From Zhihengliuella salsuginis (GTDB lineage: Bacteria > Actinomycetota > Actinomycetes > Actinomycetales > Micrococcaceae): 64,000 nucleotides of DNA. A model generated the notes under the pieces. That model made no database searches. It was not told the origin of the DNA and worked only from the letters and a program-made list of their open reading frames with translations. Location: positions 1 through 64,000 of the forward strand of contig NZ_BMXK01000003.1 of NCBI RefSeq assembly GCF_014651715.1, in the 5' to 3' direction. Position 1 is the first letter of the stretch, and each line of letters starts with the position of its first letter. Positions 12,766-50,625 of the stretch are shown piece by piece. The position numbers were made by a program, and so were the translations under genes.

Positions 12766-12883
12766 GTGTCCTCCTGGATCGTGGCGGCGGATCCCGGGGT
12801 GAGCCGGGACACGTCGGGGTCGTCATCATGCTATCGGGTATCGGCGTCCGGTGGAGGTTCGCGCCGGGTCCGCGTCGGGGTGT

Positions 12884-12972
12884 TAAAAGAGCGAAGCACC
12901 GACCGCTGCGGACAAGGAGGCGATAAACCGCCGCGGTCGGTGCTTCATGATCACTCGCACCTTGAGAAGGTG
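12884..12972 (-). ncRNA. Structured RNA element, copy A (CCTCCTT loop)
   Basis: On the minus strand a TAGGCT box (12978-12983) lies 5 nt before a hairpin (CACCTT-GAG-AAGGTG, 12958-12972). The linker GAGTGAT and a 12-bp terminator-like hairpin follow (arms 12934-12945 and 12894-12905), then CTCTTTT (12885-12891). The apical loop reads TTTATCGCCTCCTTGT, containing CCTCCTT. The upstream block AAGGTACGGCCCCTAG matches those of the other two copies. Together these suggest a short sRNA of about 85 nt with its own promoter. No -35 hexamer is recognisable. It lies in the 333-nt gap between the aldo-keto reductase and the 52-residue protein. Confidence 0.6.
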
Positions 12973-13098
12973 ACTTCAGCCTAGGGGCCGTACCTTGAGA
13001 TCACCTGAGTGCGAGGTAGGAAGCCACTGAGGTTCCAGCGAATTGCAGGTGAACTCGGACCTGGGCGGCCCGACTTCCTGCCGTCTCGCATGGGCGCT

Positions 13099-13257
13099 CT
13101 AGTAATTCGAGGGCGGGTCGGAGGCCGGGAAGGACTCCTCCTCCCACTCATCGACCATCTCGTCTTCGTGGTCGTGCTTCTTCTTCTTCGCAATCTCCTC
13201 GTCGGTGCCCTGGGCTGACTCGGCGCTGACGCCGTTGCCGGATTCGGTGGCCGTCAT
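13099..13257 (-). CDS. 52-residue acidic protein with C-terminal EEESFPASDPPSNY
   Basis: A small gene (ATG 13257, stop 13099) preceded by GAGAGGAGC about 7 nt upstream. The product is highly charged: a Ser/Glu/Gly N-terminus, a Lys/His patch (AKKKKHDHED), then EMVDEWEEESFPASDPPSNY up to the stop. I recognise the ending as a recurrent C-terminus of small actinobacterial proteins of unknown function. No signal peptide, membrane segment or cysteine is present, so it is probably cytoplasmic and mostly disordered. It lies between RNA element copies A and B on the same strand. Confidence 0.75.
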   Translation of the reverse strand: MTATESGNGVSAESAQGTDEEIAKKKKHDHEDEMVDEWEEESFPASDPPSNY

Positions 13258-13354
13258 GACTCTGCTCCTCTCGGATCGGATACCCCCAGTCTGCTGTGTG
13301 GAAGCCGCTTTGGCCAGTGTTTTCGGTGGCCGCGCCGCTGGGGCCGGCCGGCCG

Positions 13355-13439
13355 TTAAACGACGAGCACCGGCCGGATGGTTCGGGGGGAAACCATTTCT
13401 CCGACCGGTGCTCTCATCACTCGCACCTTCATGAGGTGC
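13355..13439 (-). ncRNA. Structured RNA element, copy B (CCCCCC loop)
   Basis: Minus strand: TAGATT (13445-13450), 5 nt, hairpin GCACCT-CATGA-AGGTGC (13423-13439), linker GAGTGATGA, then a hairpin with a 13-bp outer stem (13401-13413 with 13364-13376), inner stem ATGGTT/AACCAT and loop TCCCCCCG (13383-13390), ending in a T-rich tail (CGTTTAAC). One outer pair is C-A on the plus strand but U-G on the minus strand, which favours minus-strand RNA. The upstream block CAGGTTCGACCCCTAG is shared with the other copies. Resembles actinobacterial 6C-type sRNAs in its C-loop. Confidence 0.65.
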
Positions 13440-13547
13440 TTAAAAATCTAGGGGTCGAACCTGTGCCGGGACTGTGCTGTCGCTTCGGTGGCGGTGGGGA
13501 TCGTCTGGGAATCGCCGCAACCCGCCGGCGCCCGGGCGGAAACGGGA

Positions 13548-13633
13548 TCGAACGAGTCGAGCACCGGTCGGCGGCTTGGGGGGAAACCGTTGATCCGACC
13601 GGTGCTCGCATCACTCGCACCTTCATGAGGTGC
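13548..13633 (-). ncRNA. Structured RNA element, copy C (CCCCCC loop)
   Basis: Minus strand: TAGGGT (13639-13644), 5 nt, hairpin GCACCT-CATGA-AGGTGC (13617-13633), linker GAGTGATG, then a perfect 14-bp stem (13595-13608 with 13558-13571), inner stem CGGTT/AGCCG and loop TCCCCCCA (13577-13584). The inner stem differs from copy B (ATGGTT/AACCAT) yet still pairs, which is covariation. One inner pair is C-A on plus but U-G on minus. The tail CTCGACTCGTTCG is only weakly T-rich. It lies 63 nt downstream of the acyl-CoA dehydrogenase stop, on the same strand. Confidence 0.65.
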
Positions 13634-13706
13634 TCTGAACCCTAGGGCTTCAACCTGAGGATTGGCTGCGTAATTCTCATTAAGCGAGTGTGAATCAGGC
13701 CGTTGA

Positions 13707-50309: not shown

Positions 50310-50399
50310 TGGACAACCCGGTGGTGTTGGCCGCGTCTCCGCGGCCAACTACACTGGGATTGTGCTCGGCGGTTCACGCCGCCGTGCGCACGCTTTCGA

Positions 50400-50625
50400 C
50401 ATGCGGCGGGAGAGCCCCGGCCGAAGCCACGGTCGGGCGCCGTAGGAGCAATTTCCTCCCCGGGAATCTCTCAGGCCCCCGTACCGCCGCGGAGAGGCGA
50501 CTCTGGAAAGCAGTGGACCCTGCCGCGCCCAGCGCGGCCGGCGGTGCCACTCACCGAAGGTGCAAGCGGGCCGTGCGGCCCGCGGAAACTCTCAGGTCCA
50601 ATACAGAGCGGGGAGGGAAAGCCTC
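50400..50625 (+). promoter_or_regulatory. Tandem glycine riboswitch
   Basis: Two glycine aptamers in series, 62 nt before gcvP. Aptamer 1 (about 50400-50512): GCGGGAGAG ... CGCCGTAGGAGCAA ... GGGAATCTCTCAGGCCCC ... GCGGAGAGGCGACTCTGG. Aptamer 2 (about 50520-50622): TCACCGAAGGTGCAAGC ... GCGGAAACTCTCAGGTCC ... ATACAGAGCGGGGA. The GGAGAG, CCGAAGG-GCAA and CTCTCAGG landmarks match the known glycine riboswitch. Glycine binding would switch on the glycine cleavage genes. Confidence 0.93.

Follow-up and report, generated by a model that had tools for sequence, protein, structure and literature searches.

Three minus-strand elements of an apparently undescribed multi-copy family of predicted sRNAs in Micrococcaceae, with promoter repeats suggestive of a PhoP-type regulator

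The 6C RNA (RF01066) of Actinobacteria is defined by two hairpins with a run of C in each loop, and these C-rich loops are said to have been found by Mai et al. in 2019 to bind mRNAs. Streptococcal csRNAs, on the other side, are siblings driven by a response regulator and carry a short conserved string, to which no role is assigned (PMC3091779). In Mycobacterium tuberculosis, the sRNA Mcr7 is the strongest entry for combined PhoP ChIP-seq and RNA-seq in a table of its report, where it is also predicted to hide a ribosome-binding site (PMC4038636). PhoP of the same species binds TCACAGC-N4-TCACAGC with a spacing of 11 bp, the tests including three and four such motifs in succession (PMC4832192).

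The DNA analysed here, a stretch of 64,000 nucleotides from Zhihengliuella salsuginis (the window), contains three homologous elements, A, B and C, which appear from their sequence to belong to an apparently undescribed multi-copy sRNA family of the Micrococcaceae. They lie on the minus strand within 12860–13700, in the transcription order C, B, A, between genes for an acyl-CoA dehydrogenase and an aldo/keto reductase. Each is laid out as a -10 box and a 5' hairpin, after which come the near-invariant GGUGCGAGUGAU and a long hairpin rich in G and C. The sequence AAGGTGCGAGTGAT, which comprises the right arm of the 5' hairpin and the bases after it, is identical in all three; the window contains exactly 3 occurrences of it, and the whole genome contains 6. 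Between B and C, identity is 84% across 85 nt. The individual features are as follows.

13655–13690, minus strand: putative operator of copy C, an 11-bp tandem repeat upstream of the -10 box, units CAC, TGA, CAG, CAG
13639–13644, minus strand: -10 box TAGGGT of copy C
13558–13633, minus strand: predicted sRNA of copy C, its ends placed from the fold
13633–13617, minus strand: 5' hairpin of copy C, then GAGUGAU at 13616–13610
13608–13558, minus strand: 3' hairpin of copy C, with the C6 loop at 13583–13578
13461–13496, minus strand: putative operator of copy B, units CAC, AAG, CAG, CAG (CACAG-N6-CACAG)
13445–13450, minus strand: -10 box TAGATT of copy B
13364–13439, minus strand: predicted sRNA of copy B
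13439–13423, minus strand: 5' hairpin of copy B, then GAGUGAU at 13422–13416
13413–13364, minus strand: 3' hairpin of copy B, with the C6 loop at 13389–13384, then TTTAAC at 13359–13354
13099–13257, minus strand: small acidic ORF of 52 aa that ends ESFPASDPPSNY, between B and A, a syntenic neighbour outside the RNAs
12994–13029, minus strand: putative operator of copy A, units CAG, TAC, CAG, AAG
12978–12983, minus strand: -10 box TAGGCT of copy A
12893–12972, minus strand: predicted sRNA of copy A
12972–12958, minus strand: 5' hairpin of copy A, then GAGUGAU at 12956–12950
12946–12893, minus strand: 3' hairpin of copy A, with the anti-Shine-Dalgarno sequence CCUCCUU at 12920–12914

A sequence-only reading of this DNA had placed three copies on the minus strand at these positions, each with a TANNNT box 5 nt ahead of a hairpin, followed by GAGTGAT and a GC-rich hairpin; the positions, the strand, the boxes and the order of parts were all borne out in every copy, as were the loops of six C that it had seen in B and C. 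Copy A has no C6 loop and carries CCTCCTT, and this anti-Shine-Dalgarno loop, the tandem response-regulator operator and the size of the family go beyond what that reading had described. The 52-aa ORF, which matched nothing in Pfam or NCBIfam, recurs in several genera, again directly upstream of copies of the A type.

The genome holds six copies, three in the window and three on contig 13. The first sets of homologues were selected by the 14-mer that these six copies share. Of 99 genomes searched with it, 39 of the 61 Micrococcaceae contain it and none of the 38 that represent other families of the order does, a reversed-pattern control giving 1 match. A covariance model, R1, which spans from the -10 box to the end of the string and comprises 89 rows, was then searched against the Micrococcaceae, where it matched 356 of 395 genomes, representing 31 of 32 genera, and as many as 9 times in a single genome. 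Among 248 genomes drawn from the order, an uncounted share of them from other families, the 17 that match all belong to the Micrococcaceae. Sampled genomes from other families of the order gave no match with either the 14-mer or R1. The named carriers are Micrococcus lylae and Glutamicibacter creatinolyticus, both of which the taxonomy puts in the Micrococcaceae, together with an Arthrobacter and a Micrococcus MAG. Of 111 distinct cores, the underlying alignment, A2, keeps 89; the other 22 rows, which were near-identical, tandem-duplicated or odd, were removed by hand, and two loci with chance matches from other phyla (L002, L003) were excluded from the scripted counts.

Among 18 copies picked by the model, which was itself trained on the string, GGTGCGAGTGAT is kept in 17 and the remaining copy ends GAG, while the loop and flanks vary; a variant of the string with AAGATG also exists (L068), and in one copy (L060, 4404–4462) the conserved string is tandemly duplicated. 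At the gathering score, no Rfam family matched the elements, either in the window or at 12 related loci, where the sole Rfam matches are riboswitches located elsewhere; a glycine riboswitch lies at 50397–50496 of the window on the plus strand (61.7 bits). A search of a plasmid collection gave no match, and a literature search of partial coverage, with few subscription journals, returned no description of this RNA family.

The predicted structures fold well on both strands. Against shuffled sequence, the fold z-scores are -7.4 (C), -6.4 (B) and -4.7 (A) for the minus strand and -4.7 (C), -4.2 (B) and -6.5 (A) for the plus strand, the latter being expected for inverted repeats, so that the strand is not given by fold energy alone, least of all for A. 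In alignments of homologues, tested against shuffles that leave kinship between rows, 98.6% of cells were paired and 11 cells were changed on both sides for the B/C type (21 copies), and 95.3% were paired with 14 double-changed cells for the A type (13 rows, 11 distinct), with 0 of 500 shuffles as high in either case. The pairs changed on both sides numbered 3 for the B/C type, a value seen in 5 of 500 shuffles, and 4 for the A type (161 of 500); the number of pair types did not exceed that of the shuffles in the B/C- and A-type alignments. The pair-keeping changes in the 5' hairpin are C-G/U-G and A-U/G-U, which pair only when read on the minus strand, and the RNA is therefore likely to be the minus strand; the outermost pair of this hairpin is present in 38 of 89 rows. 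Because selection by the 14-mer fixes the right arm, the shuffle control for these changes is void (500 of 500). B and C do differ in their inner stems, and the minus-strand U-G pairs, from which the sequence-only reading had argued its strand, are real. Taken across the homologues, compensatory changes support the hairpins, and the G-U pairs favour a minus-strand RNA.

Downstream of the string, four layouts can be told apart by eye, namely the B/C type, the A type, a short-terminator type and a three-hairpin type; the three copies on contig 13 are of the short-terminator type and lack a C-loop. Within the 81 nt after the string, a span in which some loops may fall past the RNA end, 70 of 145 distinct copies place CCCC in the loop of a hairpin as against 10.5% per copy in dinucleotide shuffles, 9 of 145 place CCTCC there (2.0% in shuffles), and 78 of 145 one or the other (11.9%), leaving 67, those on contig 13 included, with neither. 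The A-type stem varies among copies; the A-type set was picked by CCTCCTT, so that this string is fixed by selection and the stems are not. In genus g22, the A-type loop reads CACCUCCUU, which we take to be the 3' end of 16S rRNA, and some relatives (e.g., L008 and L009) bear two C-rich loops. A TTTAA or TTAAS sequence occurs 25–110 nt past the string in 80 of 145 copies, compared with 2.7% of same-length, mostly coding background windows; it is rare in this GC-rich DNA, and after the 3' hairpin it is perhaps a termination or processing site. The classic U tail is absent, and neither a consensus terminator scan nor a standard promoter scan found anything.

The promoters, by comparison, reveal a regular repeat. 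When 140 distinct promoters were aligned on the -10 box, with those lacking a recognisable -10 box or stem omitted, CAG was found at -46, -35, -24 and -13, each in 45–46% of them. Exact CAG units average 1.84 per promoter, as against at most 0.11 with offsets shifted by 1–5 bases, and information peaks recur at lags of 11 and 22; a -35 box was not seen across the aligned set. From the end of the -10 box to the stem [AG]CC, the distance is 6–7 nt in 112 of 122 matches, a count that contains 7 without a recognisable box or stem and in which repeat copies from overlapping loci were left in. Copies A, B and C each have two of the four units as exact CAG, and all four are exact in one of the copies on contig 13. 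The conserved upstream block noticed earlier from the sequence proved to contain the last unit of this 11-bp repeat operator. Tandem repeats that end about 10 bp before the -10 box are typical of OmpR/PhoB-family activators, and direct repeats at 11-bp spacing, as expected of a PhoP-type regulon and resembling those that PhoP of M. tuberculosis binds, are present; searched across the genome, a two-unit pattern showed no enrichment (23 matches vs 37 in the reversed control). An operator of PafBC (DNA damage), the motif of which has a short spacing to TANNNT, was considered for the short distance seen here and dropped because the repeats are CAG at 11 bp.

Two PhoP-type regulators are encoded in the genome, P1 on contig 10 and P2 on contig 1, the latter adjoining a histidine kinase gene. 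Their best solved-structure match is PhoP of M. tuberculosis, with 288 and 223 bits, the next best other protein reaching 179 bits for P1 and 181 bits for P2. At the positions of the PhoP residues reported to contact DNA (N212, V213, E215, S216, Y217 and Y220; PMC4832192), the alignments read S, I, E, S, Y, Y in P1 and N, I, E, L, Y, Y in P2. A conserved winged-helix protein, which ends HPEVV.WAAPEYSI or similar, adjoins the P2 gene in this genome and in G026 (L139, L200). A matrix derived from the sRNA promoters gave 165 matches above 14 in 1.57 million positions of sampled DNA, of which 161 precede the family string, 1 precedes its AAGATG variant and 3 lie outside the family; column-permuted matrices gave 2 to 4 matches. 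Two of the three outside matches stand just upstream of P2-type regulator genes and the third in an unrelated locus; the P2-upstream match runs in the direction of the gene, 18 bp before its start, in this genome and points away from the gene in G006 (L174).

It is unlikely, judging from the upstream regions of these regulators, that the elements are genuine sRNAs under another OmpR-family protein and that the CAG repeats at PhoP-type genes reflect coincidence or cross-talk. Such a reading can draw on the 10 OmpR-family DNA-binding domain matches in the genome, seven of them above 80 bits, on MtrA of M. tuberculosis, which binds a motif similar to the CAG repeats, and on a distribution of P1 and P2 that does not follow the RNA. 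A P1-like protein (48–56% identity to P2) occurs in 58 of 59 sampled genomes, including where the RNA is absent; P2 (at least 59% identity) occurs in 27 of 37 Micrococcaceae genomes, and 8 of the 10 without it carry the RNA, so that the test of P2–RNA co-occurrence failed and co-occurrence does not fix the regulator. However, the matrix without its -10 part scored above the 95th percentile of background in the DNA preceding 25 of the 32 P1 genes and 21 of the 25 P2 genes (P2 starts, of approximate position, were located in 25 of 30 loci, 22 from Micrococcaceae and 3 from others, with 5 unparsed), whereas 0 of 24 RegX3-, MtrA- and CseB-type regions did so, GlnR-type regions being left out. The 99th percentile was exceeded in 9 of 32 P1 and 13 of 25 P2 regions; for P1 outside the Micrococcaceae, 4 of 8 passed the 95th percentile and 3 of 8 the 99th. 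When these upstream regions were read on the reverse strand, the 95th percentile was passed in only 5 of 32 (P1) and 6 of 25 (P2), and 4% (P1) and 12% (P2) of shuffles passed it. Base composition adds something, since a neighbouring regulator of the ERT type, with A/T-rich upstream DNA, also scored above the threshold in 2 of 9 regions; in a smaller control set with the RegX3, MtrA, CseB and ERT types, P1 passed in 4 of 9 and P2 in 2 of 7. The names RegX3, GlnR, CseB and 'ERT' are assigned labels, MtrA alone having passed the curated cut-off among four proteins scanned. The reverse-strand, shuffle and other-regulator controls strengthened the link of the operator to PhoP-type genes. As P1-like proteins are near-universal and P2 is missing in some carriers of the RNA, P1 would be the simplest candidate regulator and P2 a possible partner.

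Readings in which the elements are not a new set of sRNAs fare worse, and were rejected on scores, next-gene strand and stem compensation. The C6 loops of B and C led the sequence-only reading to the 6C RNAs, and copy C does score weakly against that model (20.8 bits, the best obtained); yet descent from or membership in the 6C family, with action through the C6 loops, is very improbable, since the gathering score of RF01066 is 47 bits, neither the window nor any of 12 related loci attains it, no 6C match occurs in the genome at E <= 0.001, and B and C have one C-loop and A none. G009 (genus g6) and G014, furthermore, carry separate 6C-like RNAs with no core motif nearby. What survives of the 6C idea is a plausibly similar mode of action, without the kinship. 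In genus g6, of which none of the listed genomes matched R1, a 6C-like RNA just under the gathering score is followed by more C-rich stretches (L217, about 1423–1600). That the elements serve as 5' leaders or attenuators, acting in cis on the following gene, is likewise improbable, if a shade less so: the aldo/keto reductase gene after A and the small ORF after B are on the same strand and the 3' hairpin is terminator-like, but among 138 copies with a callable next gene, this gene lies on the same strand in 68 and on the opposite strand in 70 (ORFs were called by a simple composition rule and copies near locus ends were skipped), and 6 further copies lie inside a predicted opposite-strand ORF. 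With the next gene on either strand, the elements are not leaders. It is scarcely credible that the string marks small ORFs, with AAGGTG as ribosome site and GTG or ATG as start; AAGGTGCGAGTGATG does resemble a ribosome site and a start, and nearby in-frame stops can be seen by eye in A and B, but the sequence after ATG varies freely among homologues, with no shared peptide seen by eye, and the stems compensate. The earlier proposal of three related, independently promoted minus-strand sRNAs, in turn, is well supported computationally by the homologues, the compensatory changes, the strand-specific G-U pairs, the promoter-like block of each copy and the random orientation of the next gene.

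Computation gives the homology, structure, likely strand, promoter repeats and spread of the elements, and from these we infer their transcription, regulator, pairing and targets. A, B and C are probably PhoP-type-activated sibling sRNAs, three of six in the genome, which share a common 5' module and block ribosome-binding sites with their 3' loops. An OmpR-family regulator of the PhoP type would bind the tandem 11-bp CAG repeats that end 10 bp before the -10 box, at a promoter that each copy would own and that works without a -35 box; upon its signal, the PhoP-type system would switch on several siblings together. Transcription is predicted to begin at the base of the 5' hairpin, to pass GGUGCGAGUGAU and to stop at the strong GC hairpin. 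The common module, made up of the 5' hairpin and GGUGCGAGUGAU, may protect the RNA or bind a protein, and the changeable part would be the 3' hairpin, which shows a poly-C loop in B and C and the anti-Shine-Dalgarno core CCUCCUU in A. These 3' loops would pair with G-rich or perfect ribosome-binding sites, as a result of which translation would be blocked.

It is further possible, though offered tentatively, that the 5' module docks an RNA-binding protein with the role of sRNA chaperone in this lineage, in which Hfq is not known to occur, and that the 3' hairpin can be exchanged as the targeting part; the A type, with the anti-Shine-Dalgarno tail of 16S rRNA on display, could then damp the translation of all mRNAs with a strong Shine-Dalgarno sequence when the PhoP-type system fires. 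If the proposed mechanism holds, the Micrococcaceae would possess, across the family, sRNAs that are linked to a two-component system of the PhoP type and that parallel the csRNAs of streptococci, members of another phylum. The 5' module, being near-invariant, would make the sRNA-binding protein in Actinobacteria a directly testable question, and the anti-Shine-Dalgarno loop would offer a simple, testable route to broad translation control.

Compared with described systems, the elements are most readily set beside the csRNAs of the CiaRH system in Streptococcus, which likewise comprise several siblings per genome with two stem-loops, a short conserved string past the first stem-loop, anti-Shine-Dalgarno sequences and promoters with an 11-bp direct repeat, there for CiaR (PMC8186281, PMC3091779). 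The present elements combine two stem-loops and a string after the first with an anti-Shine-Dalgarno sequence in the A type and poly-C in B and C. Unlike the csRNAs, they belong to another phylum, have CAG units at an 11-bp period upstream of the -10 box in place of TTTAAG-N5-TTTAAG, and hold the anti-Shine-Dalgarno sequence in the loop of the 3' hairpin rather than in an unpaired stretch; the two sets of sequences were compared via Rfam alone. Mcr7 is similar as an actinobacterial sRNA under PhoP (PMC4038636), and is likened here by regulation and predicted action, not by sequence. The 6C RNA is also an actinobacterial sRNA with C-rich loops, but the copies in the window differ from it in their 5' module, in a score far under gathering and in having one C-loop or none where 6C RNA has two. 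LhrC1–5 of Listeria resembles the elements as a family of sRNAs in several copies that is under a response regulator, in this case LisR, and differs in being a Firmicute family, the sequence comparison again running through Rfam alone. Because they fall outside the 6C, csRNA and Rfam families, the elements are classed with the response-regulator-controlled sibling sRNAs, and it is plausible that they act in the manner of csRNAs and 6C RNA while belonging to neither.
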